The translations under genes were made by a program, and so were the position numbers. The notes under the pieces are model-generated. The model saw only the letters and a program-made list of their open reading frames with translations. It searched no databases and had not been told where the DNA came from. Of a stretch of 44,634 nucleotides of DNA, positions 5,101 to 41,474 are shown one piece after another. This stretch comes from a virus. The stretch covers positions 1-44,634 of the IMG/VR virus record IMGVR_UViG_3300030406_004104, one strand, 5' to 3'. Within the stretch, counting starts at the first letter, position 1, and every line of letters begins with the position of its first letter.

Positions 5101-8100
5101 TTGATAATTTTTTTCGATGTTTGCAAAGTTTTCATTTACCTTACCTTCTAATGCACTAGTAAATAAATATTTAGCAACTAAACTAGCGGGTAATGTATGC
5201 TCTTCTACTTTACCATCAGTTAGTATTTTTGAGTAAAAGTTTATTGGCGCAGATGTTCTAACAAAGTGTCCCATACCTTGACTAGTACTAGACAATAAAG
5301 CTCCTATAAATTTAGCATTGTTTTTATCTTCAGCTATTAACTTTTCAAATACATTAAATATTTTCTTTAAACCTTTTATACTAGATTTTTGTCTAGCTTG
5401 AAACTCACTATTACTTATTTTATTTTCTATGTTAGTATAACTTTCTCTATTAACAGCATTAGATATATCAACATCTGATTTAGCAAACTCAACACCTTCT
5501 ATAAGAGTTTCAAGATCGCTTATACTTGTAAAGAAAAAACCTCTTTTAGGTCCTGATACACCGGCGTTAGCAAAAGTACCTACAGTAAAAAACTCTTTAG
5601 GTAATCTTGGTGCTAATACTTCTTTAATAAATTTTCTAAACTCAACAACATCATTTTCATTATTAGAGTCTGGTAATATTATACCTATAGATTTTAATAT
5701 ACCTCTCCAGTTTTTATTTTCAGCAGCAAATTCAGTAGGGTTTTTTATAAAGCTATCATCTTCCATAAATTGGTTTTTGCTTTTTTCTATGTTAGCTTTT
5801 GAATATGCTATCCTACTTTTTTGAGCAGCTGTAACGCTAGCTGTTTGTTTTTTAACAGCAGGCGTTTGAGTTTGTTGTTCTAGTACTCTTTGCGCTGATG
5901 ACAAACTAGCTTGTTGTGAGTATGTTTTAGCAACACCTTTTAATAACTGACCTATACTTCTATTGTAGTTATTAAGTTGTCCAGTTGGAGTTATACCTAA
6001 ATCATTTTTAAATTGTTCAACAACTTGTGGTGATGGGTTTCTAAACTCTGGTTTTAATTCCCATATAGCTGGTTGTGATGTTAAACCTTTTGATCTTCTA
6101 TTTGTTTTATTATAAAAGTAATTTAACACTCTACCTTTCATACCAATAGATAAACCTTTAACATCTTTAGCTACATCTATGTTTTCACCTAACTCATTTA
6201 TATCCGCGGTGTCTGCACTTACATTTTCGTCAGGTAATATTCTTATAAATTTTTCTGCGTTTTGTCCTTGTCTAAACCAGTCTTGTATATTACCAGCTTC
6301 AGAAGCTTCTGGTATACCGTTAACTATTTTTTTAGCGTAAGTTAAATTTTTAGTTGGACTAGTTATTTTATCTGCAGGAACATTAAATACTTTATTAGCT
6401 ACATTGTTAACGTTGTTATCTATAACTTGTTTAAATGTATCGTTAGGATTTACTTTAACACTACTAACTAAATCACTTTCGTTTACTCTATCAAACCTAA
6501 GTATATTTATTTTACGTCTATCAGTAACATCTTGCGGTGTTGTTTCAGTTTGTGTATCAGCTATTTGTCTAGTAGACTGATCTATTCTTGTCTCTCTAGC
6601 TCTTCTAGCTTGCTCTTGTGCTAACTGTTTATTAGCATCTAATCTAGCGAAGTTAGTATTAGCAAAAACAAACTCACCAAACGTTTTATTCATAGCAGGA
6701 TCAAAGTTCATTAACCTGTCTTGTATACTTTGTATTGTAGCATCTGCTTGAGCTTTACTACTAGACCTAGATCTTACATAGTTACTTATAACACCATTAG
6801 GTTGTGTAGCGTCAAATGCTTTTGTAAACACTTCAGTATTATTTTGAAACTCTTGTTTTGTTTTTATAGTATTAGGTACTATAGCGTTAATAGCATCTAA
6901 CGCACCTTTTGACTCTTTAATTGTAGTTTCTTGTTCAACTGGTTGAGTACCTATTAAAGAACCTGTAGCTCCTTCAGCCGCTAATCTTCTTTGTGCTAAA
7001 TTTAAACCACCTTCACCAATACTTTTATTATAATCTCTTACAAAGTTGTATACGTCTCTACCGTTATTAAATTTAATATTAACGCCAAACCTTTGTAGTG
7101 TTCTTCTAATAACATCACCTATTCTAGTAAAAGAGTTTTCTTGGAACTTAATATCACCAGTAGCAATAGCATCTGAAAAAAGAGTTAATGCTTCTTCCAT
7201 TTGTACATCTCTTGACTGATCGTTATATAAAGCCATACGCTCTTTAAATTGACTGTCTTGTATTTGATTAACATCAATTTTATTTAACTCAGATAATAAA
7301 GAATTACCTAAGTTAATAGCGTTTTGTGGATTATCTTTAACTGTTTTAAATAATACAGCATGTAAAAACTCATGACCAGCTACATTAACAGCTTGATCTT
7401 TTACAGCTTGTTCTTTATTTAAAATAATATCTTGAGTACCATCAGCTCTTTGTATTACGAAACCTTGTTGACCAGCAGATCTTTTAACATCAGACACGTT
7501 AATATCTTCTGTTTCATTTAAAAAGTTTTCTACTTCTGCCGTAGTATTAAATCTTCTTACATTAACACCTTGTACATCTTCAGCTGCTTGAATTACATTA
7601 AAAGCGTTTTTATTAAATTCGTTTTCTATTCTAGCTTGTGAAGAATTAGCTATAGCTTGTTGTCTTTCTTGTATTGTAACATCAACAGTTGCATCAGCAT
7701 ACTTGCTTTGTATTTCTTTTATTTTATTTGATAGCTCAGTTTTTTTATTAACAGCTGATTTAGTATCATTGTTTTTTAAAGCATTTAACTTTACTTCTGC
7801 ATCTATTATATCTGCTCTATCGTTTACATCACTTATTTTAGGATCTATCTTTTGATCAAGATTTATTCGCTGCATGCGATTATCTATAATTTTAGACATG
7901 ACTTCGTCATTATCTATTTTAATAGTTGTTCCCATTATAGTAGAGTCGTCCATGCCTTTAATAACTTCTCTAAACTTAGATGCACTTAACACTTCACCAT
8001 TAATACTATATTTAGCTGGAGCTACTACATTAGCTGTAGCGTCTAATAAAGCTTTACCTGGTTTTATTTTTATACCTGAAGTTGCTTTACCAGCTTCAAG

Positions 8101-9414
8101 AATAGTAAATGATTTATCTGCAAAACCTTCTGTTAATATTTCTCTTGCATCAAACTCTTGACCAGCTGCATATTGACCACCTATTTCACTAGCTAAACCA
8201 CCAACTGTTTCTGTAGTACCAGCTGCAACAACTTGAGCACCTCTTGCTAAAGCAGTTCTACCAGTGCTAGCAACTACTTTTCTAGTTGCACCTGCAGCAC
8301 CACCAGTAACCATACCAGTTACAGTATCTATAAAACCAATAGTTAAACCTCTTTTTAATGCTCTATTTGTAATTTCTGATTTTAACTCTGGATTATTTAT
8401 TATTTCACTAGATATTGCAAACCTTTGCTCATCAGTCATATTAGCCCACTGTAATTTACTACCTCTTTTCTTTAATTCTTCTTCAGCTACTTCTTGTAAT
8501 AATTCAGCTGTAGTAAAACCTATTTCCATTGTAGTAGATAAACCACCCATTGCTCCAGATATAGTACCTGTTACTCCAGCTGCAACTGTACCAATACCAG
8601 GTATAACACTACCAGCAGCTGCAGCAGTACCACCAACAGTAATTGCGCCAGCTGAGGCAGCAGCAAAAGCTTCTTCTGATGATGTTAAACTAGCATACAT
8701 GTTACCCATAGACTGTGCTGAAAACTGAGTCATAGCTGTAGGATTTTCCCACCATGATGAAAAGAAAGCTTTAAAACCACCCATGTCTTCTTTTTTCTTA
8801 GCATAAGCTTCGCCAAACGCTATCATCTCATCTGTCTGTGCTTGGTTCTCCATTTGCCTAGCAGTTTTTAAAAACGCCATTAACTCTTCAGGTGTTGTGT
8901 CGTCTTTATATAATTCTAACGCTGTATCAAGACTATAACCTTGAGCTTTACCAGAGTCCCACGATCTTGATAAATCACCAAAAAAATCAGTAACTTCGTT
9001 GCTACCAAATACTTTTTCTGGTACTGTTAACAACTTACTAGGGTTTATATCTATAAATTTATCTAAACCTTTTTTCTCAACTTCTTCAGCTTCTTCAAAT
9101 CTTTCCTTTTCAGTTTTAAACTTAGGTAAAGTTAAATCAGGTATTGACTCTTGTTTAGGTTGTTTTAATTGTTCAGGTGTTAAACCAGATAATATAGCCG
9201 CTCTACTTGGAGCTGATCCCAACGAACCATCTTCCAAGCTGAACTCCGATTTTGGTGCTTGATTGTCCGGCGCCGCGTTCGCACCCACAGTCGTGGCACC
9301 TGTTATCTTTCCCACTTGCGCTAGTTTTTCATCAAACTCTGCTAGTAAAGCAATAAACTGTTCTTCACTAACGCCTGCGTCTTTGAGAGATTTTATATAT
9401 TCTTCTCTAGTCAT
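2182..9414 (-). CDS. Giant polyvalent virion/ejection protein with zincin and HAD-like motifs
   Basis: 2410 aa, the largest gene here. Visible parts in order: a charged N-terminus; a GC-rich Pro/Ser linker (about 31-58); a long Ala/Gly hydrophobic stretch (about 250-295) that could insert in a membrane; a zincin-type motif H681-E-F-L-H685; a region of repeated amphipathic helices; a HAD-type fold with D1570-F-D-D-T, T1649-A-R-P and D1705-D1706; then a helical C-terminal third with a hydrophobic segment near 2200 followed by an acidic run (DEEEEED). Long proteins stringing unrelated enzyme domains together are known as phage 'polyvalent' proteins. Their position after adaptor and core genes fits injection into the host with the DNA. 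Protease and phosphatase activity are inferred from motifs only. Confidence 0.7.
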   Translation of the reverse strand: MTREEYIKSLKDAGVSEEQFIALLAEFDEKLAQVGKITGATTVGANAAPDNQAPKSEFSLEDGSLGSAPSRAAILSGLTPEQLKQPKQESIPDLTLPKFKTEKERFEEAEEVEKKGLDKFIDINPSKLLTVPEKVFGSNEVTDFFGDLSRSWDSGKAQGYSLDTALELYKDDTTPEELMAFLKTARQMENQAQTDEMIAFGEAYAKKKEDMGGFKAFFSSWWENPTAMTQFSAQSMGNMYASLTSSEEAFAAASAGAITVGGTAAAAGSVIPGIGTVAAGVTGTISGAMGGLSTTMEIGFTTAELLQEVAEEELKKRGSKLQWANMTDEQRFAISSEIINNPELKSEITNRALKRGLTIGFIDTVTGMVTGGAAGATRKVVASTGRTALARGAQVVAAGTTETVGGLASEIGGQYAAGQEFDAREILTEGFADKSFTILEAGKATSGIKIKPGKALLDATANVVAPAKYSINGEVLSASKFREVIKGMDDSTIMGTTIKIDNDEVMSKIIDNRMQRINLDQKIDPKISDVNDRADIIDAEVKLNALKNNDTKSAVNKKTELSNKIKEIQSKYADATVDVTIQERQQAIANSSQARIENEFNKNAFNVIQAAEDVQGVNVRRFNTTAEVENFLNETEDINVSDVKRSAGQQGFVIQRADGTQDIILNKEQAVKDQAVNVAGHEFLHAVLFKTVKDNPQNAINLGNSLLSELNKIDVNQIQDSQFKERMALYNDQSRDVQMEEALTLFSDAIATGDIKFQENSFTRIGDVIRRTLQRFGVNIKFNNGRDVYNFVRDYNKSIGEGGLNLAQRRLAAEGATGSLIGTQPVEQETTIKESKGALDAINAIVPNTIKTKQEFQNNTEVFTKAFDATQPNGVISNYVRSRSSSKAQADATIQSIQDRLMNFDPAMNKTFGEFVFANTNFARLDANKQLAQEQARRARETRIDQSTRQIADTQTETTPQDVTDRRKINILRFDRVNESDLVSSVKVNPNDTFKQVIDNNVNNVANKVFNVPADKITSPTKNLTYAKKIVNGIPEASEAGNIQDWFRQGQNAEKFIRILPDENVSADTADINELGENIDVAKDVKGLSIGMKGRVLNYFYNKTNRRSKGLTSQPAIWELKPEFRNPSPQVVEQFKNDLGITPTGQLNNYNRSIGQLLKGVAKTYSQQASLSSAQRVLEQQTQTPAVKKQTASVTAAQKSRIAYSKANIEKSKNQFMEDDSFIKNPTEFAAENKNWRGILKSIGIILPDSNNENDVVEFRKFIKEVLAPRLPKEFFTVGTFANAGVSGPKRGFFFTSISDLETLIEGVEFAKSDVDISNAVNRESYTNIENKISNSEFQARQKSSIKGLKKIFNVFEKLIAEDKNNAKFIGALLSSTSQGMGHFVRTSAPINFYSKILTDGKVEEHTLPASLVAKYLFTSALEGKVNENFANIEKNYQQGLLSKADDRKLKGIKPNGKPFNYTSITPEGWKITDNIWARYFNENVAGIDPSNIILANGNNIVQEFNIDAKGFSTNQAIEQSKAKAFKKNKTKYSKATNNEGLQNDLNNHDKALRNAKNTKAPKKGISIFDFDDTLATTASKIIVKMPDGKVKKITPAEFAKQHSKLQEQNAEFDFTEFNEVIDGKPALASEKLKKAIEKFGNKDVFVLTARPQASAQAIYEFLKGIGLEVPLENITGLEDGTPQAKANWVIGKAAEGYNDFYFTDDVYKNVKAVQDALEVLDVKSKSRVAYKNMQKKLDRDFNDILEAKTGIAAEKEYSRAKATVVGANKGRFKFFIPPSAEDFVGLLYSTLSKGKLGDSQMAWYKKNLLDPFATAMHAVSRERISLMNDYKQLKKQLGIVPKNLRKKIAGETFTNEQAVRVYIWNKQGMTIPDLSKADLKELTDYVNSKQDLKTFADQLIAINKEDGYVKPNIGWLGGTITTDLLQNLGTTKRAKHLQQWQNNVDIIFSEKNLNKMEAAFGKAHRVALEGILERMKTGRNRNFQSDSITGRVTDWLTNSIGTIMFFNTRSALLQTISSVNFINFSDNNIFKAGKAFANQPQFWKDFMFLMNSEFLVDRRRGLRINVNEADIANMARQGGARGVVSKMLELGFLPTQIADSFAIASGGASFYRNRINKYKKQGIEQKAAEERAFKDFREIAEESQQSSRPDRISAQQAGPLGRIILAFGNTPMQYARLIKKASSDLINRRGDMKTNISKIIYYAAVQNLIFNALQQAVFAIAFGDIDEEEEEDKYINIANGMADSLLRGLGVAGAFVSVGKNVIKRVIDESEKPNPKYEKVGYELTRISPPISSKLSRINQAARAFQWEKEEMREKGFAIDNPALLAGANVISATTNVPVDRLVKKTNNVVQATTQDLEMWERLALLGGWQDWEIGADKEDKKPILYGPRIQNRKTIEGKDRIINRRTIN

Positions 9415-28183: not shown

Positions 28184-28455
28184 TATCTTGATCTTCTTTC
28201 AGCAAAACCTGTAAATGATTTAGGTTTGTCTTGTTTAGGTTTATCCTCTAATATAGCTTTTTCTTCTTCAATACGATTTAATATTTCAAACGCATCGAAT
28301 ATAGCTAGCTTTTTTGTTGCTGCAGCATTTTTTAATCTATCAGCTGAAACATCATCATCACTATCAACTATTTTTTCTTTAGCTACTTTTATTAATTCAT
28401 CAACAGCTTTGTAGCCAGCTTCTATTATGTTTACTTTTTTCTTCTTCGGATCCAT
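28183..28455 (-). CDS. Small helical protein before terL, small-terminase candidate
   Basis: 90 aa from the ATG at 28453-28455 (MDPKKKKVNIIEAG). A TTG two codons upstream is possible. It is helical and charged, with 'IEAGYKAVDELIKVAKEKIV' and 'ADRLKNAAATKKLAIFDAFEILNRIEEEKAIL', and a basic tail (GFAERRSR). Small terminase subunits of short-tailed phages are often about 90 aa, helical, and encoded just upstream of the large subunit. No HTH is obvious, so the assignment rests on position and size. The stop overlaps the terL start (TAATG), suggesting coupled translation. The 5' 56 nt overlap the upstream gene in another frame. Confidence 0.45.
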   Translation of the reverse strand: MDPKKKKVNIIEAGYKAVDELIKVAKEKIVDSDDDVSADRLKNAAATKKLAIFDAFEILNRIEEEKAILEDKPKQDKPKSFTGFAERRSR

Positions 28456-28951
28456 ATTCAATTGTAATAAAATGTTCTAAAACTCTATATAATTTCTCGT
28501 TGTCTATAGTAAACTCATACTCACTGCTAGGTCTAAAACCTACTAACTTACCTTGGTGCTTACCGTATTTAACTACACCCATTAATTCTTTATCAATAGG
28601 TTTAACAAAACAATAACCATCAATAGCTTTCCACTCTTTGTCTCTTTTATAAGCGTATATCTGATCTACATTTACTTTATATAAATCATCACTTATCCAA
28701 TTAGTGCTATTACGTTCTTTACCTCTAGCATCGTGCCATCTTCTAAAAACGTTATGATGTATTATAAGTGTATCACCAACTTTTATTTTTGTTTTAAAGT
28801 TACTTGGTAAACCTACAACAACAGCCTCTCTGCTTATATACTCGTGACTAAATATTTCACTATTTAATATAAGCTCTTTATCTTTTATTTTTTTAGTATT
28901 ATTGTATCTTGAGGTTTTTGGTTTTACTAAAAAATAAAACGTACCTTTCAT
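28400..28951 (-). CDS. Beta-barrel protein with GroES-like pattern, unknown role
   Basis: 183 aa. The order 'FYFLVKP ... REAVVVGLPSNFKTKIKVGDTLIIHHNVFRRWHDARGK ... DDLYKVNVDQIYAYK' follows the layout of chaperonin-10 folds (VKP strand, gap, G.VVAVG, kVGD.V.F, then a terminal strand before DI.A). A second partial copy seems to begin at 'GYCFVKPIDKELMG'. This could be a co-chaperonin-like or simply a small barrel protein used in the virion. I would not name it GroES, because the mobile-loop IVL-type tripeptide is not evident. It sits between two small unknown genes and the terminase pair, with 1-nt and 56-nt overlaps. Confidence 0.4.
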   Translation of the reverse strand: MKGTFYFLVKPKTSRYNNTKKIKDKELILNSEIFSHEYISREAVVVGLPSNFKTKIKVGDTLIIHHNVFRRWHDARGKERNSTNWISDDLYKVNVDQIYAYKRDKEWKAIDGYCFVKPIDKELMGVVKYGKHQGKLVGFRPSSEYEFTIDNEKLYRVLEHFITIEYGSEEEKSKHNRSWLQSC

Positions 28952-29467: not shown

Positions 29468-30376
29468 TTACTTTTTCTTTGGTGGATTATCAATAAACCA
29501 GTTCTTATAACACTCACGTTTCATTAATATATATTCTAAGTAAGCGTCTATTTTTGCTTTCCAGTCTTTGTCTACAGCTGGGTTTATAATACCTGATTTA
29601 GGATTAGAAAATGTTTTATTAATAAATTTTTTACCATGTTGTTGATGATAAAATAAATGATTATTAATACAATAAAACGATCCTCTCTGTATATTATTCC
29701 AAACATCTATTGGTTGTGTATACTTACCTAATACTACAGCGTATGCACAACTTTCACTAATATGTGTTGTGTATACGTTTTCAGCTTTTTGTAAATAATA
29801 ATACATATTACAGTCTCTAGGTAATATACACTCTTCACCAAAAAAGTCTTTTAACTCACCTATAATTTGATGAGTTGTTATTGGGTGTGGTTTAAAATAA
29901 ACATCATCACCATGTTGTTTTTTAATAAACTTTAATTTATTTAAACATACATTTTCCCTAACTTTGTTTGATCCCGGTAGTACAACTATGTTGTTTTTAA
30001 AATCATACGACTTACTAACATCTCTTCTGTCAGTATATTTGTTACTATCGTTTTTTACAACTTTATTAATTAAGTAGCCAGAGTAATCTACTTCTGGAAA
30101 GTTAGGTTGCTTTTGATCATACCAAGCATCTACTAACTGTTCGTTTCTTAATTTATAATTTAAAGGTTGTAAATAAAAACTACCTGCATATTCCGTATAT
30201 GCTAATGTTCTAAAATATGGCATTTCTTCAGCCATAACATCGTAGCTAGACTCAATGCCCATTTCACTACATCTCCTCTTTAAATAACCTTCAACTTGTT
30301 CTAGGTCATAAAGGCTTTTTGATTTTTTTAAAGGACCTATACGTTTGTCTAGTTCCTTTTTATTAAACATTTCCAT
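29468..30376 (-). CDS. GT-B-type glycosyltransferase-like protein
   Basis: 302 aa. The C-terminal half reads 'NNIVVLPGSNKVRENVCLNKLKFIKKQHGDDVYFKPHP' (KPHP at 162-165) and 'NVYTTHISESCAYAVVLGKYTQPID' (205-223). A basic residue + HP loop and a later S/T-rich plus 'E..A...GK' nucleotide-binding helix are hallmarks of the KpsS/polysialyltransferase/CDP-glycerol-transferase group of GT-B enzymes. The N-terminal half (helical, Tyr-rich) would be the acceptor side. There is no TM or signal peptide. It lies directly downstream of the Thr/Ser-repeat protein genes, which offer hundreds of hydroxyl acceptors, so O-modification of those proteins is an attractive guess. The true substrate could instead be DNA bases or host polysaccharide. 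Confidence 0.5.
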   Translation of the reverse strand: MEMFNKKELDKRIGPLKKSKSLYDLEQVEGYLKRRCSEMGIESSYDVMAEEMPYFRTLAYTEYAGSFYLQPLNYKLRNEQLVDAWYDQKQPNFPEVDYSGYLINKVVKNDSNKYTDRRDVSKSYDFKNNIVVLPGSNKVRENVCLNKLKFIKKQHGDDVYFKPHPITTHQIIGELKDFFGEECILPRDCNMYYYLQKAENVYTTHISESCAYAVVLGKYTQPIDVWNNIQRGSFYCINNHLFYHQQHGKKFINKTFSNPKSGIINPAVDKDWKAKIDAYLEYILMKRECYKNWFIDNPPKKK

Positions 30377-30428
30377 AAAATTAAATTTGATTATTGATAT
30401 TATATTAGTTACATGTTTCTACACTTTT

Positions 30429-32441
30429 CTACCTACCATCACTAAAAGGCTTGTTACCAAGCTGTCCATGTTTATCTGTAGAAAATATTGCAGTATTTAA
30501 AGCGCCGCCAGTAGAAGTAGCAAAAGCAAGCTGATACCAACCAGTAGTTGTAGAATAACCAGTACTAAACGTAGTAGTTGTTGTAAACGTAGTAGTGGTA
30601 TTAAAAGTAGTGGTAGTATTAAACGTAGTAACTGTTGACGTACTAGTATTGAACGTAGTTAATGTACTAGTATTAAAAGTAGTTGTTGTGTTAGTACTAG
30701 TATTAAAAGTTGTTGTAGTAGCTGTACTTGTATTAAACGTTGTAGTAGTAGCCGTGCTAGTATTAAATGTGGTAGTAGTAGCCGTACTTGTATTAAACGT
30801 AGTCGTAGTATTTACATTTGTACTAAAAGTTGTTGTAGTAGAAGTAGAGGTATTAAATACAGTTGTTGTACTTACGTTAGTACTAAAAGTAGTAGTCGTT
30901 GATCTGTTAGTGCTTCTGCTAGTTGCAAACGTAGTAGTTGTTGACGTTGACGTATTAAAATTAGTAACAGTAGTAGTACTAGTATTAAACGTAGTAGTTG
31001 TACTCTTACTAGTTGCTGTACTTGTGTTAAATACTGTTACGGTAGCAGTGCTTGTGTTAAACACTGTAGTTGTTTGTGTATTAAATACTGTTGACGTAGA
31101 TTTACTAGTAGTAGTACTTGTGTTAAACGTTGTAGTATAAACAGTAGTAGTTGATCTTTGAGTTGGCAAGCTTTCATCACCTGCAGCTGTAGTTCTGCTT
31201 GTACTAACTACCGTATTAGTAGTATATACAGTTGACGTAGTATAAGTAGTTATAGTTGTATAAACTGTGCTAGTACTTCTACTCGTACTAAATGTTGTAG
31301 TTGTATTTCTATTAGTACTTACTGTTGTTGTTCTACTAGTAGATGTTGTTCTACTCGTGTTAAACGTTGTTACTGTCGAAGTACTTGTGTTAAATACTGT
31401 ATTAGTAGTATATGTAGTAGTAGTGCTCCTACTCTCTGTAGTACTTCTTGAAGTAGCAAAAGTTGTAGTTGTACTTTTATTAGTACTTATAGTAGTTGTT
31501 CTACTTGTAGCTGTAGACTTACTAGTGTTAAATGTAGTAACAGTACTAGTGCTCGTATTAAATGTAGTTGACGTAGTATACACGGTAGTAGTACTCCTAC
31601 TTTCAGTAGTATTTCTATTTGTAGAAAAAGTAGTAGTAGTAGACTTATTAGTTGTTCTACTAGTATTAAAAGTGGTGGTAGTACTTTTACTTGTTGAAAA
31701 AGTAGTAGTAGTACTTCTTGATGTAGCAAATGTAGTTGTATAAGTAGTTACAGTTGATGTGCTTGTATTAAATGTAGTAGAAGTTGTATATACAGTACTT
31801 GTAGTATAAACTGTACTTGTATTTCTACTTGTACTAATAGTTGTTGTTCTACTTGTAGAAGTTACAGTACTTGTATTAAATGCTGTACTTGTAGTGTACG
31901 TAGTTGTTGTATTTCTTGTTTCAGTAGTGTTTCTACTAGTAGAAAATGTTGTTGTCGTTGTTCTAGTAGTAGATACAGTTGTTGTTCTACTAGTACCTGT
32001 CGTCCTGCTAGTATTAAAAGTTGTAGTAGTACTATACTCTGTTATAGTATTACGACTTTCACCAGTGTTTCTAGACGTATTAAAAGTTGTAGTAGTTGCG
32101 TATACAGTAGTTGTATTTTTACTTGTTCCAGTAGATCTAGACGTATTAAATGTAGTCGTAGTATTATAAGCTGTTGTAGTATTAAATGTTGTAGTGGTGT
32201 TATAAGATGTAGTTGTGTTTCTACTTTCACCAGTGTTTCTACTTGTATTTCTAGTTGTATTAAATGTAGTTTCTCTATCAGTTTCTCTAATAGTATTAAA
32301 AACAGTAGATGTAGCATATACTGTATTAGTTGTATACGCTGTTGTAGTAGACCGACTAGTCGAGCCCTGCGACACATAAATCGTTATAAACGACGTCGTT
32401 GTATTTCTTGAAGTTGCTGTAGATCTACTAGTACTTGGCAT
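30429..32441 (-). CDS. Giant Thr/Ser decapeptide-repeat protein B
   Basis: 670 aa. Almost the whole chain is Thr, Ser, Asn, Phe/Tyr and Val in a 10-residue repeat of the type [ST]-T-x-T-[TV]-F-N-T-S-[TRK]. The register is clearest near the C-terminal end, where four consecutive units code 'TTTTFNTSTA'. The N-terminus (MPSTSRSTATSRNTTTSFITIYVSQGS) is only slightly different. The last 40 residues leave the repeat (TGWYQLAFATSTGG..GQLGNKPFSDGR). A single non-repeat island 'AAGDESLPTQ' lies near residue 420. There is no TM or signal peptide. It is probably a fibrous virion protein, as alternating Thr suggests stacked beta-strands. It is a paralogue of the 742-aa protein two genes upstream. Confidence 0.7.
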   Translation of the reverse strand: MPSTSRSTATSRNTTTSFITIYVSQGSTSRSTTTAYTTNTVYATSTVFNTIRETDRETTFNTTRNTSRNTGESRNTTTSYNTTTTFNTTTAYNTTTTFNTSRSTGTSKNTTTVYATTTTFNTSRNTGESRNTITEYSTTTTFNTSRTTGTSRTTTVSTTRTTTTTFSTSRNTTETRNTTTTYTTSTAFNTSTVTSTSRTTTISTSRNTSTVYTTSTVYTTSTTFNTSTSTVTTYTTTFATSRSTTTTFSTSKSTTTTFNTSRTTNKSTTTTFSTNRNTTESRSTTTVYTTSTTFNTSTSTVTTFNTSKSTATSRTTTISTNKSTTTTFATSRSTTESRSTTTTYTTNTVFNTSTSTVTTFNTSRTTSTSRTTTVSTNRNTTTTFSTSRSTSTVYTTITTYTTSTVYTTNTVVSTSRTTAAGDESLPTQRSTTTVYTTTFNTSTTTSKSTSTVFNTQTTTVFNTSTATVTVFNTSTATSKSTTTTFNTSTTTVTNFNTSTSTTTTFATSRSTNRSTTTTFSTNVSTTTVFNTSTSTTTTFSTNVNTTTTFNTSTATTTTFNTSTATTTTFNTSTATTTTFNTSTNTTTTFNTSTLTTFNTSTSTVTTFNTTTTFNTTTTFTTTTTFSTGYSTTTGWYQLAFATSTGGALNTAIFSTDKHGQLGNKPFSDGR
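30540..32430 (-). repeat. 30-bp tandem coding repeat (decapeptide array B)
   Basis: Adjacent 30-nt units can be lined up by eye. From about 30660 to 30840 the + strand shows the core 'GTATTAAA' (or 'GTACTAAA') once every 30 nt. Units differ mostly at third codon positions, mixing ACT, ACA, ACG and ACC for Thr while the encoded residues stay constant. The array is therefore old and kept by selection on the protein. The opposite strand shows long Val/Leu-rich open frames that are a by-product of this composition. Confidence 0.8.
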
Positions 32442-32442
32442 C

Positions 32443-33000
32443 TTATAATACTTTATTAATTACTGGAATAACAACATTACCATTATCTTTTAATAACGTT
32501 GAGTAATGTGTTTTTAAATCATTTTGAACTTGATCTGTATAATCATCTTGCCAGTTATAACACTGGATAATTATTAAATCATATTTTTTTACACTATCAT
32601 ATGTTAACATATTTGGAGTGTGTGTTATAGTTATATCTTCACTTAAATAATCTATATAGTTTATTAAATCTTGATTATCATCTATAACATCTAAACTTTT
32701 TACGTTTTTATTTTCTATAATATACTGAGCTTTATAACCTCCATGTATACCTATCATTAAAACGTCAACATTTTCCCACGTTATGTTTTCCCAACATGTA
32801 AAATAATTACACGCGTCATTATCACCAAACCAACATGTAGCTTCAGTATCTAAATTATGATATACAGCTCCATCTTCAAATGTAATAGTTGCTGCGTCTG
32901 GTTTGCTTCTACTGTCATCAAATTCACAAACTTGACTTGTTTTTGTTACAGTAAAACCTGCTCCGTTACGTGTGTTTATTAAGTTTTCATTTACTATCAT
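32443..33000 (-). CDS. SAM-binding, spermidine-synthase-fold-like protein
   Basis: 185 aa. After an N-terminal beta part ('AATITFEDGAVYHNLDTEATCWFGD'), residues 79-145 follow the class I methyltransferase/spermidine synthase order: strand 1 and loop 'VDVLMIGIHGGYKAQYI' (81-95), strand 2 'KSLDVIDDNQDLINY' with acidic D104/D107, 'ITITHTPNMLTYDSV', then 'KYDLIIIQCYNW' and 'LLKDNGNVVIPVI'. The glycine loop is degenerate (G-I-H-G-G) and the chain is short, so catalytic competence is uncertain. It lies between the two Thr-repeat genes, 2 nt from one and 10 nt from the other. This makes a modifying or assembly role for those proteins plausible. The repeat-gene linkage is observed; the function is inference. 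Confidence 0.45.
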   Translation of the reverse strand: MIVNENLINTRNGAGFTVTKTSQVCEFDDSRSKPDAATITFEDGAVYHNLDTEATCWFGDNDACNYFTCWENITWENVDVLMIGIHGGYKAQYIIENKNVKSLDVIDDNQDLINYIDYLSEDITITHTPNMLTYDSVKKYDLIIIQCYNWQDDYTDQVQNDLKTHYSTLLKDNGNVVIPVINKVL

Positions 33001-33010
33001 ATCGTTTTAT

Positions 33011-35239
33011 TTATCTAGGTCCACCTGGTCCATCACCACCATCTCCACCGCCTTCACAAGCTGTCACTCCAGTTACTAAACCATTGTTGCCTACAGTTAT
33101 AGCGTGTGATGCTCCGCTAATAGCGCTACTACCAATACCATAATTACCTGAAGCTAATGGGTTTGTACCACCTGAGTTAGTGTATAAGTAATCATTAACT
33201 TGAATAACTTGTGACGAACTATTACCACTACCAACTTGTCTATAAACAACAAAGTTAAGTGATGCAGTACAAGAGAAGAACGAGAATACTTGAGCGGCAC
33301 TTCTATATCTAGTTTGAAGAGCTGCAGCAGTGTTAAACGTTGTTATAGTGTTAAACTGTGTAAGCGTGCTTGTACTAGTAAATTTAACTTCTTGTGTACT
33401 TGTATTAAACGTCGTAGTAGTGTTTCTACTTTCCGCTGTATTTCTACTTTCTGTTGTAGATCTACTAGTAGAAGCAGTAGTATTAAACTCTGTATCATTA
33501 CTTACTTCAAACGTAGTACTATATGTTGTACTTGTAATGTATGATGTAGTAGTACTTCTACTTTCACCTGTACTTCTACTTGTAGCAGTTGATCTGCTTT
33601 CAGCTGTACTTCTACTAGTATTAAATGTTGTAGTAGTGTTAAATGCTGTAATTGTACTTCTACTTTCAGTAGTACTTCTACTAGTATTAAACGTAGTACT
33701 AGTTGTATAGCTAGTAAGTGTGCTTCTGTTTTCTAATGTACTTCTTGAAGTGTTAAACGTAGTAGTAGTGTTGAACGCTGTAGTTGTACTAGTGTTAAAT
33801 ACAGTTGTAGTAGATTTAGTAGTATTAAACGTAGTTAATGTAGTATATACTGTTGATGTAGTTCTACTCTCTGTTGTGTTTCTACTTGTACTAAATGTTG
33901 TAGTAGTAGTAAATACAGTTGTAGTACTTGTATTAAATACAGTACTTGTATTCCTAGTTTCTGTAGTGTTCCTACTTTCAGTTGTGTTTTTTGAAGTAGC
34001 AAACGTAGTCGTAGTACTTCTATTTGTTATTCTACTGGTATTAAAAGTAGTTGTAGTTGTTGTGCTAGTATTAAACGTTGTAGTTGTTGATCTATTAGTG
34101 CTAAACGTGGTTGTATATACTGTTATAGTTGATGTACTAGTATTAAACACTGTGTTTGTAGTATATACAGTTGTAGTAGATCTTGACTCAGTTGTATTTC
34201 TACTTGTTGCAAAAGTTGTTGTAGTACTACGAGTTGTATTGAAAGTAGTTGTAGTATTAAACACTGTAGTCGTGCTTGTATTATACACGGTGTTTGTAAC
34301 TGTACTTGTGTTAAAAGTAGTGGTTGTAGTGTATACGGTAGTTGTGCTTCTACTTTCAGTTGTATTTCTGTTAGTACTAAATGTTGTCGTTGTACTACGT
34401 GTAGTATTAAACGTAGTTGTTGTATTAAACGTAGTTGTAGTACTAGTATTGTAAACAGTATTAGTAACCGTACTAGTGTTAAACGTAGTTGTAGTATTTC
34501 TAGTTTCTGTAGTACTTCTTTGCTCTGTTGTGTTTCTACTTGTTGTTGTGGCTGTAGAAGTATTATAAACAGTTGTTGTTTGACTTGTATACTCAGTTAA
34601 CGTAACTCTACTTGTAGTCCTTGATGTGCTAAACGTAGTTGTATATACAGTATTTGTTGATCTAGTAGTAGATACAGTTGTAACTCTACTTGTGCTTACA
34701 ACAGTATTGGTTGATATACTAGTAGGTACTGTAGTACCAAAGCTTGTAGTAGTAGATCTAGTTGTTGCAAACGTTGTTGTTGTACTCCTTGATGTTGCGA
34801 AAGTAGTTGTAGTACTTTTGCTTGTATTAAATGTAGTGTTAAACGTTGTTACAGTTGATGTGCTAGTATTAAAAACTGTTATAGTTGATCGGGATGTGTT
34901 GAATACTGTGTTAGTAAGTGTTGATGTGTTAAAAACAGTATTAGTTGTTCTTGAAGTAGATACAACAGTATTAGTTGCTCTACTAGTTGAGAAAGTTGTA
35001 GTTGTATTTTTAGACGTGCTTACAACTGTACTTGTATTTTTAGATGTGCTTACAACTGTACTCGTTGATCTTGATGTAGAAAAGGTAGTTGTTCTTGATG
35101 TACTAAAAGTAGTAGTAGTGCTTCTTGAAGTACTAGTTGTTCTTGTTGTACTAGTTGACCTCGAAGTAGTTGTTGATCTAGTAGTGTTATTAGCAGTACC
35201 GGTGCCCCAAAAATCTATTCTGTTCCACAACCAGTTCAT
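33011..35239 (-). CDS. Giant Thr/Ser decapeptide-repeat protein A with C-terminal adhesin-like module
   Basis: 742 aa. It has a short N-terminal anchor (MNWLWNRIDFWGTGTANN), then about 590 residues of decapeptide repeats. In one hand-counted 100-residue stretch there are 44 Thr and 17 Ser, set as ten consecutive rows such as TNTVFNTSTL and TSRSTTTTFA. Higher-order duplications of about 55-60 residues occur in the middle. The last 120 residues are ordinary: 'FSFFSCTASLNFVVYRQVG' and 'YLYTNSGGTNPLASGNYGIG ... AITVGNNGLVTGVTAC', ending Gly/Asp-rich. That final module resembles the end of the 1250-aa nozzle protein. No signal peptide is present, so it is most likely a virion fibre or surface coat. 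The fibre genes lie immediately upstream. Confidence 0.7.
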   Translation of the reverse strand: MNWLWNRIDFWGTGTANNTTRSTTTSRSTSTTRTTSTSRSTTTTFSTSRTTTFSTSRSTSTVVSTSKNTSTVVSTSKNTTTTFSTSRATNTVVSTSRTTNTVFNTSTLTNTVFNTSRSTITVFNTSTSTVTTFNTTFNTSKSTTTTFATSRSTTTTFATTRSTTTSFGTTVPTSISTNTVVSTSRVTTVSTTRSTNTVYTTTFSTSRTTSRVTLTEYTSQTTTVYNTSTATTTSRNTTEQRSTTETRNTTTTFNTSTVTNTVYNTSTTTTFNTTTTFNTTRSTTTTFSTNRNTTESRSTTTVYTTTTTFNTSTVTNTVYNTSTTTVFNTTTTFNTTRSTTTTFATSRNTTESRSTTTVYTTNTVFNTSTSTITVYTTTFSTNRSTTTTFNTSTTTTTTFNTSRITNRSTTTTFATSKNTTESRNTTETRNTSTVFNTSTTTVFTTTTTFSTSRNTTESRTTSTVYTTLTTFNTTKSTTTVFNTSTTTAFNTTTTFNTSRSTLENRSTLTSYTTSTTFNTSRSTTESRSTITAFNTTTTFNTSRSTAESRSTATSRSTGESRSTTTSYITSTTYSTTFEVSNDTEFNTTASTSRSTTESRNTAESRNTTTTFNTSTQEVKFTSTSTLTQFNTITTFNTAAALQTRYRSAAQVFSFFSCTASLNFVVYRQVGSGNSSSQVIQVNDYLYTNSGGTNPLASGNYGIGSSAISGASHAITVGNNGLVTGVTACEGGGDGGDGPGGPR
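33380..35190 (-). repeat. 30-bp tandem coding repeat (decapeptide array A)
   Basis: The same 30-nt unit as in array B, with frequent 'AGTATTAAA' cores on the + strand and variable Thr codons. Units with 'TESRSTTT' and 'TVYTT' alternate with 'TTTTFNTS' units, so super-repeats of 50-60 residues are visible (for example the twice-occurring block from TFNTSTVTNTVYNTS to NTTESRSTTTVYTT). No frameshift breaks the 1.8-kb array. Confidence 0.8.
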
Positions 35240-35248
35240 GAGATAATT

Positions 35249-35656
35249 TTATGGTGCAGGATACGCGTCAAAGTTTCCTACATAGTTAATTAATACTTTA
35301 GTTGAAGATAATACTAAATATGATATTACAGCTATACCATTAGCTGTTGTATCCCAATTTATAAAACTACCACCGGGTGTATATGCCGAAGAGTCAACAG
35401 ATGCTCCAGTAAAACTACCTACACTACTTGGATTGTTGCATATAACATTTCCTGCTTTACCTACGTTACCACCTAGATTAGAAAAAGTTATATTATTAGT
35501 TCCGTTTCTAAAAGTCAATGTAAAGTTATTAGTATTAGAGTTCATGTCTACAGTATGTTGATAACCACTACTAGTAGCAGTTATAGTAGTAAACGTAGAC
35601 TTTTGAAAAGTAAAATCTCCAGTTACAAGGGCGTTTGATAGGATTTTTAAAGGCAT
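35249..35656 (-). CDS. Small beta-rich fibre-associated protein
   Basis: 135 aa: MPLKILSNALVTGDFTFQKSTFTT..., with 'HTVDMNSNTNNFTLTFRNGTNNITFSNLGGNVGKAGNVIC' and 'YTPGGSFINWDTTANGIAVISYLVLSSTKVLINYVG'. The pattern (short strands, Asn/Thr/Gly turns, one domain) is that of small phage receptor-binding or fibre-tip proteins. The 'FTFQKSTFTTI' start could join it to a fibre. It lies after the terminator that follows the 622-aa fibre gene and 10 nt before the Thr-repeat protein A gene. The fibre association is inferred from location and composition. Confidence 0.5.
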   Translation of the reverse strand: MPLKILSNALVTGDFTFQKSTFTTITATSSGYQHTVDMNSNTNNFTLTFRNGTNNITFSNLGGNVGKAGNVICNNPSSVGSFTGASVDSSAYTPGGSFINWDTTANGIAVISYLVLSSTKVLINYVGNFDAYPAP

Positions 35657-35714: not shown

Positions 35715-37583
35715 TTATGAGTAAGCTACAGTTCCAGCAGTTGATCCTTTGATTGAAGTAATTAAAACTTCTATATCATTTGAAGGAGCTGCGGCAAAAG
35801 TAATTTTAACTTTACTCGTTGATGCACTGTTTGATTTATCTGTTCTAGCTACATCAGCAAAAACTGTTTCTTTTGAGCTTGAATCAAATAATTGAACAAT
35901 TACATCTTCAGTACCTAAACTATGTGTAATCTCAGCATACAAGTTAGATGTAAACTGTGAATCAGATACATCTATTGTAGCATGTACAGACTTAGCAGCT
36001 AATGTATCAGGTGTTACAGCTTTAGTAGCATTAGTACCTGTTTGAACTTCAGCAGCTGAAGCTAAACTTAATTGAGTGTTGTCAGATACAAGATCTATTG
36101 TTCCATCACTATCTTGGTAAGTAGCTGATATATTAGTTTCAGTATTACCAGTGAACATAGCACCTACAATATCCTGTACTTCTTCAGTAGTTAACTGAGT
36201 GTTAGCTGTCATATCATCAACAACAAAATCTAAAGTACCATCACCATCTTCGTATGTTACAGCTACTCTAGTTTCTGTGTTGCCAGTTACCATAGCTCCA
36301 ACAGTATCTTGTATAAATTCTGTAAGAGTAGTACCGTCAACTGTTATCGCATCAGCTTCTAAAGTACCATCAATATCAGCATCACCCGATATATCTAATT
36401 CAGTACCTGTAAACTTAGCAGCTTTAATATCTTCAAATGAAGATCCTAATTTAAAATCAAACGCTTCTGTTGTAGCATTATAAGTAAATGTAGCATCATC
36501 GCCAGTACCACCTTCAAGTGTAATACCAGCACCATCAACAACCGCTGATGTACTGTTACCACTATCAAGTACTATGTTATGATCATTAAGATTTACTGTA
36601 GTTGAGTTTACTGTTGTAGTAGTACCTGAAACTTGTAAGTTACCAGTTATTACTATTGTATCACCACTATCAGCACCAATTGTAATGTTTTCATTTGCTG
36701 CACCACTTGCAGATTCTAAGTTAGCTAATCTAGTTAATAAGTTTGCGTTATTAACATCTACGTCAGTGTTTGAAGTAAATGTTAAGTTTGATTGTAAGTA
36801 TGACTGTAGCACACTAACATCCATTCTCTTAACAGTACCAGCGTCACTAATCATAAGTTCATCTGTACTTGCTAAACCTGATGTTAATGCTCCTTGACCA
36901 GAGATAATATCATCGTTTAACATACCGTGATGAACAGCTGCAGATGCTATTGTAGTAGCTATAGATACGTTACCTTTTGCTGTTTGTGTCTGCGTACCAG
37001 TGACATCACCTGTTAAAGCAAAGTCTGAGTCTGCTATAACAAAGTCTAAAGTACCATCTGAATCTTCATAAGTTACTGTAATACCTGTTTCAGTATTACC
37101 TGTTACCATACCACCTACAAAGTCTTCAACTTCTTCTTCAGTTAAATTTGTATCAGTTGTAAACGTTAAGTTGTTCTGCATGTATGTTTGTAATGCAGAT
37201 ACAGTTGTTAATTGTTCTGTTGAACCGTCAGAGTCTAAAGTTAAAAAAGAGTCTCCACTTGCAGGTGTTACTGCTGAAAACTCTGATATATCTATAGTTA
37301 TAGTCGAGCTATAATCTCCTGAGTTTGTGTTTGATTGGGTTATATCTAAACCAGTTCCAACTGATATATCTACACCCGTTATATCACCCGTTGCATTAGA
37401 AGTACCTAAGCTAACCCATGCGGAGCCGTTGTAAAACTTCAATGTACCCGAGTCATATATGATTTGTCCTGTTCCAGGGTTCGACACTGAACCTTGAGCT
37501 ACGTTATGTAATCGGACATTCCTAATTTCGGCTTTGTTTGTACCAATGCCAAAATCCATGTGATTTAAAATAGGTATTGCCAT
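35715..37583 (-). CDS. Tail fibre protein with triplicated ~38-aa motif
   Basis: 622 aa. The N-terminal 60 residues (MAIPILNHMDFGIGTNKAEIRNVRLHNVA..., 'NPGTGQIIYDSGTLKFYNGSAWVSLG') are the standard start of marine phage fibre proteins, with the 'FYNGSAWVSLG' turn. A repeated module with 'EEVxDxVGxMVTGNTET..ITVTYEDSDGTLDFV' occurs three times (about 146-184, 421-458, 466-503). It is familiar from cyanophage-type fibres. Further segments are beta-helix-like ('NLQVSGTTTTVNSTTVNLNDHNIVL'). The C-terminal domain ('SDSQFTSNLYAEITHSLGTEDVIVQLFDSSSKETVF') resembles fibre-tip domains. Host recognition is the likely role. The N-terminal coding stretch is about 47% G+C near 37441-37500, above the rest. 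Confidence 0.75.
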   Translation of the reverse strand: MAIPILNHMDFGIGTNKAEIRNVRLHNVAQGSVSNPGTGQIIYDSGTLKFYNGSAWVSLGTSNATGDITGVDISVGTGLDITQSNTNSGDYSSTITIDISEFSAVTPASGDSFLTLDSDGSTEQLTTVSALQTYMQNNLTFTTDTNLTEEEVEDFVGGMVTGNTETGITVTYEDSDGTLDFVIADSDFALTGDVTGTQTQTAKGNVSIATTIASAAVHHGMLNDDIISGQGALTSGLASTDELMISDAGTVKRMDVSVLQSYLQSNLTFTSNTDVDVNNANLLTRLANLESASGAANENITIGADSGDTIVITGNLQVSGTTTTVNSTTVNLNDHNIVLDSGNSTSAVVDGAGITLEGGTGDDATFTYNATTEAFDFKLGSSFEDIKAAKFTGTELDISGDADIDGTLEADAITVDGTTLTEFIQDTVGAMVTGNTETRVAVTYEDGDGTLDFVVDDMTANTQLTTEEVQDIVGAMFTGNTETNISATYQDSDGTIDLVSDNTQLSLASAAEVQTGTNATKAVTPDTLAAKSVHATIDVSDSQFTSNLYAEITHSLGTEDVIVQLFDSSSKETVFADVARTDKSNSASTSKVKITFAAAPSNDIEVLITSIKGSTAGTVAYS

Positions 37584-39671: not shown

Positions 39672-39925
39672 TCGATTATTACTACATCCGAGTGTTTAAT
39701 AACATAGTAATACTTATTATTAAACTCTATACCGTGGCCAGCGTGCTTATCGTACCATACTATATCACCAGCATTAATACCAACAACACTATCACCAACA
39801 CTTATAATCTCTCCTTTTAAATACCTAATGTCTATGTTCTGGTCTTCAGTTAATTCTAGACCAGCTATTTTATTAGCTTTAGGTTTTATTTTATTTATGA
39901 TTATGTAATTATTTACTGCTTTCAT
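39668..39925 (-). CDS. groES: Co-chaperonin (GroES/Cpn10 family)
   Basis: 85 aa. '[83 protein letters not shown]' aligns with GroES over its whole length: the first strand, a mobile loop with the hydrophobic tripeptide-like LEL (residues 23-25), KGEIISVG, the GDIVWYDK strand, and the terminal strands with the SDVVII end. The loop is shorter than in E. coli GroES (97 aa). It caps the GroEL cavity during folding. It overlaps the 3' end of the GroEL gene by 17 nt, so the two are coupled, in the order groEL-groES, opposite to most bacterial operons. Confidence 0.8.
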   Translation of the reverse strand: MKAVNNYIIINKIKPKANKIAGLELTEDQNIDIRYLKGEIISVGDSVVGINAGDIVWYDKHAGHGIEFNNKYYYVIKHSDVVIIE

Positions 39926-41474
39926 TTGTCCTCATGTTTGAAATTACACAATCAGCTGATATAATAGTACTAACAACAGATACTGCATTACGTAATGCGG
40001 ACTTAGTTACTAGTACTGGATCTATGATACCAGCTCTAATCATATTAACCTTTTTACCTGTTACAACGTTTATACCTTGACCTAAGTTTAATTTATCAGG
40101 GTGAGGTATGTTTGCGTTGTCTAATATTGTTTCAAAAGGTTTGCAAATTGATTTTAATAATATTTTTTCACCTACGTTAGCAGGCTTTATTGTAGTCGAT
40201 GCATTTAGTAATGCTACACCACCTCCAGGTACTATACCTTCTTGTAATGCGGCTTTTGTAGCGTATATAGCATCTTCAACTCGATCTTTCTTTTCTTTCA
40301 GCTCGATCTTTGAATTAGCACCTACAAAAACTATAGCGACTGATCCTGCTAGTATAGCTAGTCTTTGTTCTAGCTTTTTTCTTATATAAGGATTTTTGTC
40401 TTCTTTAGCAATTTGCTTCTTTATTCTTGTTACACGTTCTTGTAAATCTTTACCAGCTTTGTTAACTGTAAATACTGTTTTTTTATTATCGGTAACAACT
40501 TTAACTGCTTCGCCTAAACAATCAGGCTCTATAAAGTCAAAATCATCGCCTAATTCTTCATTTATTATTTTAGCCCCTAACACTATAGCAAGATCTTCTA
40601 TAGTATCTTGTTTAGTAGGACCAAAGCCTGGTAAGTCAACTATGTTAACTTTTATATTACCTTTTACTTTATTAGCTAGTAAAGCAGCTTTAGGTTGTTG
40701 ATCTAAGTCTGCTACTATTAATAAAGATCTATTAGATTTAATACAATGTTCTAATATATTTTGTATTCTTCTTATATTAGGTATTATAGAAGAAGATATA
40801 AGTACTAGTGGATTATCTAGCTCTGCTACGTTACGATCTTTATCAGTAACTAAATACTGAGATGTTAAACCTGAATCTATTTGTACACCATCAACAACAT
40901 CTACATAAGTATCACCTGTTGGTGACTCTTCCATCAACACAACACCGTCTTGCCCTACTTTTTTGTAAGCCTCCGATATAATTTCACCAAGTTGTTTATC
41001 ATTGTTTGTTGATATGGTGGACACGTGAGTAAGTAAACTATCATCAACGGCTTTACTTTTGTTTTCCAAAAACTTAATAACTTTGTCTGTACCGCTTTTA
41101 ATACCTTCTTTAACTTCTCGTAAACTATCATACTCTGTTTCTTCAACTGTTTTTAATAGCGAATGAGCAAGGACGGTAGCTGTAGTAGTACCGTCACCTG
41201 CTTCTTTCACAGTGTTATTCGCCGCCTCTTTAATTAATGTAGCGCCTATGTTTTCAACCGGATCATATAAGACAACAGATTGTGCAACTGTTACACCGTC
41301 TTTTGTAATCACCGGTTTACCTAGCGCGTCTTCGTAAACTACGCATTTACCTGAGGCACCAAGTGTAGACTTAACCGCATTGTTCAGCTTCTCTACACCC
41401 TTAATAACTTTATCTTTGGCTTCATTGCCAAACATCAGATCTTTGACGATCTGACTAGGTTGATTATATTCCAT
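39909..41474 (-). CDS. groL: Chaperonin GroEL homologue
   Basis: 521 aa. A clear GroEL throughout: '[38 protein letters not shown]' (ATP-site region), 'G93[10 protein letters not shown]' with D94 equal to catalytic D87 of E. coli, '[22 protein letters not shown]' apical domain, '[26 protein letters not shown]' with the conserved glycine run, and a C-terminus ending [10 protein letters not shown] without the usual GGM repeats. It refolds client proteins in a double ring. Phage-encoded GroEL is known in some large and marine phages but is uncommon. Together with the GroES gene just downstream it gives the phage its own folding machine, probably for capsid or repeat-fibre proteins. The 5' region (41281-41340) is about 47% G+C. 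Confidence 0.92.

Follow-up and report, generated by a model that had tools for sequence, protein, structure and literature searches.

A linked phage gene cassette of threonine-rich, fibre-like proteins and a predicted CMP-sugar glycosyltransferase

The DNA analysed here, called the window throughout, is the full 44,634 bases of the IMG/VR virus record IMGVR_UViG_3300030406_004104, which is linear and probably a fragment. Four consecutive genes on its minus strand form the cassette that is the subject of this report, in the order B (33011..35239), a 185-aa gene (32443..33000), A (30429..32441), and a gene for a 302-aa protein (29468..30376), named KPHP here after the motif at its residues 162-165. 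An earlier reading made from the sequence alone (the sequence-only reading) had described these four open reading frames (ORFs), and their sizes and positions were all borne out. Protein B, of 742 aa, combines a Thr-rich shaft that alternates at every second residue (about residues 8-640) with a C-terminal domain free of repeats, and is a predicted tail-fibre protein; protein A, of 670 aa, is nearly all Thr-rich alternating repeat with a short C-terminal tail GQLGNKPFSDGR. The 185-aa protein resembles the class I S-adenosylmethionine (SAM)-methyltransferase/spermidine-synthase type, with a motif I that is degenerate in the window, and the KPHP protein is a predicted GT-B glycosyltransferase with a (K/R)xHP cytidine monophosphate (CMP)-binding motif at K162-P165, an S207-E208 pair, and an invariant D46.

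Thr makes up 39% of protein B (286 Thr and 118 Ser) and 46% of protein A (306 Thr and 103 Ser). Self-identity within the two sequences peaks solely at even lags (6, 10, 14, 18, 20, 24, and 34), and the peaks reflect units of six and four residues, for example STTTTF and NTSR. The even-minus-odd autocorrelation reached z = 15.8 and 13.4 against shuffled sequences, compared with -2.9 to 3.2 for controls from the same window. A two-face model covers about 630 residues, slipping phase nowhere in B and twice in A. Thr with Arg, Phe, Tyr, Glu, and Lys makes up one face, and Ser, Thr, Asn, Val, and Ala the other. Thr codon agreement at the repeat lags is 0.35-0.48, i.e., about the 0.40 expected by chance, which means that the repeats did not arise by recent duplication of DNA; the pattern has long been in place and is maintained at the protein level. 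The two proteins total only 4 and 3 Pro residues, the repeats being nearly devoid of Pro and Gly, and they contain 45 and 43 N-x-S/T sites versus 35 in shuffles, a modest excess.

Peptidase_S74, an endosialidase-type trimerisation chaperone, scored above its cut-off at the C-terminus of B in one relative, L033 (23 versus 22 bits), and comparable C-terminal segments were judged by eye to be present on B in several others; the S74 segment is absent from the window's own B. As read from the sequences, the alternation in A and B is a β-strand pattern and not that of a mucin, and, because of its strictness and the S74-type chaperone end on the relatives' B, A and B look like β-structured fibre shafts, probably trimeric. 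The sequence-only reading had proposed 10-residue Thr/Ser repeats forming a mucin-like coat with N-x-S/T acceptor sites. The Thr/Ser-rich repeats stand, but not as a plain 10-mer, given the even lags and the shorter units. A disordered, mucin-like coat was rejected on the near-lack of Pro and on alternation with no more than two slips over its modelled length, and N-glycosylation of the repeats was set aside because the N-x-S/T count lies close to the expectation from composition and these phage proteins are cytoplasmic.

The KPHP protein has no Pfam match and falls in PHROG families of unknown function. Its AlphaFold2 (AF2) model, built with 25 aligned sequences, has a predicted local distance difference test score (pLDDT) of 82.5 and a predicted template modelling score (pTM) of 0.82. 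A Foldseek search of solved structures placed three CMP-Kdo (3-deoxy-D-manno-octulosonic acid) transferases, KrkA, WbbB, and KpsC, at the top (E values of 1.6e-5 to 9e-5), followed by the teichoic acid polymerase TagF; the best matches among predicted viral structures were close to the fold of the KPHP family itself (one being named Vibrio phage VH1_2019), and capsule-synthesis-like proteins came next. At the profile level, a homologue from the Caulobacter phage BL199 gave a borderline match to Capsule_synth (18.4 versus a cut-off of 20 bits), and that of the Vibrio phage phi-pp2 one to Glyco_transf_52 (family GT52; 18.4 versus 26.1 bits, E = 0.0014). Profile-profile comparison with Bacteroidota Capsule_synth proteins yielded an alignment across the CMP domain that was weak, at about 25% probability and E values near 7e-4 to 8e-4, and hmmsearch and phmmer of the family against PDB sequences gave no match. 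The (K/R)xHP motif is the CMP-binding motif common to sialyltransferases and retaining Kdo transferases, and QxxxD is the nucleophile motif (KrkA paper, PMC12887879; also PMC9587256). K162, H164, and P165 are invariant in 20 sequences from unrelated phages. CMP-sugar-dependent GT-B transferases (the GT38/52/80/99/107 group) have an S/T-S/T (phosphate) and E (ribose) element after HP; in the alignment E208 is invariant, S207 is nearly so, and the residue preceding it varies. Both KxHP and the S/T-E element are kept down to 20% identity, and a dN/dS of about 0.08-0.14 points to strong purifying selection on the gene. From the model and the alignment, the 302-aa protein is predicted to be a CMP-sugar-type GT-B glycosyltransferase.

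Close KPHP relatives numbered 90 in viral contigs, and 286 were found with a wider pattern. Linkage was counted over those distinct KPHP genes whose upstream sequence extends for 400 nt or longer (n = 62) and, for the second Thr-rich gene, over those with 6 kb upstream (n = 27). A Thr-rich ORF ends no more than 150 nt upstream of KPHP in 61 of the 62 distinct marine loci, the exception being a truncated gene, and two Thr-rich ORFs are found in 26 of the 27 loci with the longer upstream region; among 962 other ORFs, all at least 150 aa long, there is no Thr-rich one. The relatives' complete Thr-rich ORFs vary in length between 439 and 1850 aa, whereas KPHP proteins are all close to 300 aa. One more KPHP relative sits in a Flavobacteriales metagenome-assembled genome.

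The pairing extends to phages with KPHP homologues of only 20-27% identity, namely Caulobacter Autographiviridae, Caulobacter phage Cr30, KVP40-type and related Vibrio phages, and Stenotrophomonas phage DLP6. A Thr-rich protein is encoded directly upstream of the homologue, or one small gene away, in BL199, Lullwater, phi-pp2/KVP40, 6E35.1a, D479, and F86; one of these isolated-phage partners is annotated "cell wall mannoprotein", and the D479 gene (L139:2263-2775) is unannotated in the deposited record. In DLP6 the partner lies more than 15 kb from the KPHP gene, where a baseplate wedge protein (L141:31408-35274) is extended at its C-terminus by several hundred Thr-rich, alternating residues; neck and baseplate wedge proteins also lie near the Cr30 homologue. 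Whole-genome scans detected a single Thr-rich protein in each of phi-pp2, BL199, and DLP6; the relatives VH7D, Percy, and KSC, which are without KPHP, had none. The gene at the matching position in VH7D and Va3 retains the N-domain (BLASTP E = 4e-7 for VH7D), its remainder is 8% Thr, and there is no KPHP gene; by this sequence comparison the Thr-rich domain itself is swapped out in these Vibrio phages. The fibre of Percy and KSC is a 1,013- or 1,054-aa protein, and in Percy its N-terminus is homologous to the 408-aa fibre protein of BL199. By lineage, the presence of KPHP is associated with that of a Thr-rich protein, at Fisher p values of 0.048 with Cr30 counted as negative and 0.005 with it as positive, on small numbers and with some genomes read in part.

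The partners of the isolated phages share a spacing grammar, with Thr at ±4 in 54-76% of cases and a hydrophobic residue or Arg at ±2; in A and B the ±4 spacing holds for 49-50%, and further Thr residues sit at ±2. The enzyme of the Caulobacter podoviruses is nearest to that of Cr30 (39% identity), which is another type of phage on the same host, and transfer between phages is therefore suggested for the KPHP gene. Thr-rich proteins used as tblastn queries gave no cross-lineage matches, as expected of low-complexity sequence, and queries with the BL199 and DLP6 enzymes found no distant IMG/VR relatives, the Vibrio protein retrieving only KVP40 itself.

A search for CMP-sugar synthetases matched three of the five fuller relatives of the window phage. 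The matched gene is kdsB-like and is directly followed by kdsA, which scores above the NCBIfam equivalog cut-off for Kdo-8-phosphate synthase; the adjacent pairs lie at L210:8644-10000, L211:7500-8871, and L212:7938-9303 in these marine relatives. Within an otherwise conserved nucleotide/sugar block, this pair is an optional element, flanked on one side by a cupin gene and on the other by two conserved genes. The two conserved genes are a GT8-like gene, so judged by eye and with no Pfam match, and a homologue of GT29-type sialyltransferases (above the Pfam cut-off in the two tested); in all seven relatives that have the region, they follow ribonucleotide reductase (L210:9997-11429 and counterparts in L211-L216; partly in L212). 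Among the fuller relatives, those with the KPHP protein most like the window's are the kds-bearing G150 (81%) and G151 (77%). The isolated KPHP phages gave no match when searched for a CMP-sugar synthetase (CTP_transf_3), and these would therefore rely on host CMP-sugars (CMP-Kdo); Gram-negative hosts make CMP-Kdo for lipopolysaccharide (LPS).

Given the observed linkage, co-occurrence, domain swap, shared grammar, and kds genes of the relatives, together with the predicted fold and aligned motifs, we consider it probable that the cassette encodes tail-fibre shafts and an enzyme that modifies them, by O-glycosylation of Thr from a CMP-activated ulosonic acid, perhaps Kdo. Thr would alternate with an aromatic residue or Arg on one face of the A and B shafts. 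The KPHP enzyme would bind a CMP-activated acidic sugar, a 3-deoxy-ulosonic acid for which Kdo is the first candidate, and transfer it in the host cytoplasm, before assembly, to Thr hydroxyls within the T-x-(aromatic/Arg)-x repeats. The outcome would be a densely sugar-coated, negatively charged fibre, and the relatives' own kdsA-kdsB would increase the supply of CMP-Kdo. We infer the Thr acceptor, the Kdo donor, the stereochemistry, and the function and benefit of such a coat. The wider proposal is a more tentative one, and we would not yet favour it: that a mobile two-gene module in four or more unrelated groups of phages with Gram-negative hosts has a CMP-ulosonic-acid transferase O-glycosylate Thr in T-x-(aromatic/Arg)-x β-fibres, some phages adding a CMP-Kdo pathway of their own, so that virions would bear protein-linked Kdo, of which we know of no description. 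Part of the sequence-only reading is retained in this proposal: the GT-B assignment agrees with the AF2 model, the Foldseek matches, and the borderline profile matches, the genes are linked in related phages, and decoration of the Thr-rich protein by the enzyme is backed indirectly by co-occurrence and the domain swap; what had to be given up was the mucin-like character and the N-x-S/T acceptors.

Several results weigh against this interpretation. The Foldseek TM-scores are low (0.34-0.44), with a domain packing that differs or is uncertain, and the Pfam matches of the KPHP family all fall below the curated cut-offs. No QxxxD nucleophile of families GT99, GT107, and GT140 is conserved; the loop before HP reads LPGSNK, with an invariant Gly and Asn. 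Because KxHP is kept and QxxxD is not, the claim made is for a CMP-sugar-type GT-B enzyme and not for membership of these Kdo families, and the lack of QxxxD also weighs against a firm assignment of donor and stereochemistry. An AF2 model of B alone was uninformative (pLDDT 32). The Cr30 partner is a short protein with 20% Thr and shows only the flanking residues of the grammar, which is weak. Finally, kdsAB is optional, being absent in four of the seven relatives that have the region, and was not seen in the window, which is without that half of the genome (there is no ribonucleotide reductase).

The enzyme might instead alter host LPS or capsule, in receptor masking or superinfection exclusion, and adjoin fibre genes because the fibres bind that glycan. 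Its structural relatives build surface polysaccharides, receptor-altering phage glycosyltransferases are known, and the relatives' kdsAB could serve LPS. However, the partner is always Thr-rich and not just any fibre, even where it is a short domain carried by another protein (Vibrio) or part of the far-off wedge protein of DLP6, and VH7D, while retaining the N-domain, is without both enzyme and Thr-rich domain; we regard this explanation as unlikely. That A and B are simply unmodified structural β-fibres, the enzyme having another virion component or DNA as its target, would be sufficient to explain the strict alternation, and β-rich fibres are often laden with Thr without carrying glycans, but neither the pairing of enzyme and Thr-rich protein in several lineages nor their common T-x-(aromatic/Arg)-x grammar would then be accounted for, and this too seems to us rather improbable.

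There is also very little probability, in our judgement, that KPHP is a non-catalytic or chaperone-like GT-B relative for folding or trimerising the Thr-rich fibres. Genes for fibre chaperones often adjoin phage fibre genes, and the nucleophile of the Kdo transferases is missing; nevertheless, retention of the CMP-binding KxHP and the S/T-E element in even the most distant homologues, and the strong purifying selection, speak against it.

For the 185-aa protein, profile similarities that are weak but concordant favour the SAM-methyltransferase-type fold that had been proposed for it. Spermine_synth is matched by 15 of 27 family members at E = 0.1 or better (best 6e-4), and the best matches to MTS (4e-5) and to a PDB methyltransferase (9e-4) are likewise weak; a match to Maf_flag10_N (E = 0.05) was treated as chance. 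Motif I reads GLGLG in relatives and GIHGG in the window, and dN/dS against L009 is about 0.33. The gene is kept between B and A across this phage group; in some members another methyltransferase-like gene accompanies it, or a larger one takes its place. Such a larger protein, of 349-353 aa, occurs in L062, L064, L071, L072, and L073 and appears to combine a methyltransferase-like N-terminal part with a Hint-like (intein/hedgehog-type) C-terminal part. In the Vibrio and Caulobacter phage neighbourhoods read, the stretch from the Thr-rich gene to KPHP contains no methyltransferase-like gene. The 185-aa protein may have the sugar, the fibre, or something else as its target.

Immediately upstream of B lies a gene for a 135-aa protein without a family match (35249..35656, minus strand), possibly fibre-associated by its context, and then one for a 622-aa fibre-like protein with repeats (35715..37583, minus strand). 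The window further encodes a large terminase, a portal, structural proteins, a holin, GroEL (39909-41474), and a GroES-like protein (28400-28951), the last two by PHROG matches, and its terminase and capsid proteins are nearest to those of uncultured podovirus MW202828 and of Flavobacterium, Cellulophaga, Tenacibaculum, and Maribacter phages; by these sequence affinities it is a fragment of a flavobacterial-type podovirus. MW202828 has the same order from chaperonin to terminase and a 648-aa fibre-like gene at the position of the 622-aa gene, but the cassette is missing, and the 648-aa gene is directly followed by small genes resembling those after KPHP in the window. KPHP has no match anywhere in the MW202828 record, and the 42 kb of it that were read showed no Thr-rich protein. 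Elsewhere in the window, a 2,410-aa protein (2182-9414) matches, only in part, a PHROG of unknown function, and long plus-strand Val/Leu-rich open frames at 30595-31743 and 33330-35246 are antisense readings of the Thr-rich repeats and not genes.

Known systems share parts of what is proposed here. The retaining Kdo transferases KpsC (GT107), WbbB (GT99), and KrkA (GT140) are alike in predicted fold and (K/R)xHP and are the best Foldseek matches, but they have QxxxD, the TM-scores are low, and their acceptors are polysaccharides, whereas a Thr-rich protein is proposed here. GT-B sialyltransferases (GT38, GT52, and GT80) share the HP motif and, as far as the alignment suggests, an S/T-E-type phosphate/ribose element; sequence similarity to them is only borderline, and their acceptors are glycans. 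Maf-type transferases move a CMP-ulosonic acid onto Ser/Thr of flagellin, a surface filament protein, in the cytoplasm, but belong to another enzyme family and act on bacterial flagella, not virion fibres. S74-chaperoned tail fibres and spikes resemble the relatives' B in its Peptidase_S74-like end; here, however, the Thr-rich shaft is several hundred residues long, and the window's B is without that segment. Mycobacteriophages Che8, Corndog, and Myrna are reported to modify capsid and tail-tube proteins with their own glycosyltransferases and thereby to avoid antibodies (PMC12363180); theirs is a modification of capsid and tail tube in mycobacterial hosts, and that paper mentions no Thr-rich fibre or CMP-sugar enzyme. 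No description of the Thr-rich/KPHP pair was found in the literature on Thr-rich phage repeats and phage virion glycosylation, most subscription papers being outside the coverage. Glycosylation of virions is thus not new in itself; to our knowledge, the acceptor, the class of enzyme, and the kds genes described here would be.

If correct, the proposal would name a widespread and unannotated system of phage fibre modification and would give a function to PHROG families 26179 and 30602, both listed as "unknown function" and one of them carried by KVP40-type phages. It would account for the presence of kdsA and kdsB in some marine flavophages and would tie a protein glycosyltransferase that uses CMP-sugars to a simple sequence rule, T-x-aromatic/Arg-x. 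Fibres coated with an acidic sugar would also bear on adsorption, on virion stability, and on how these phages avoid binding to the host surface.

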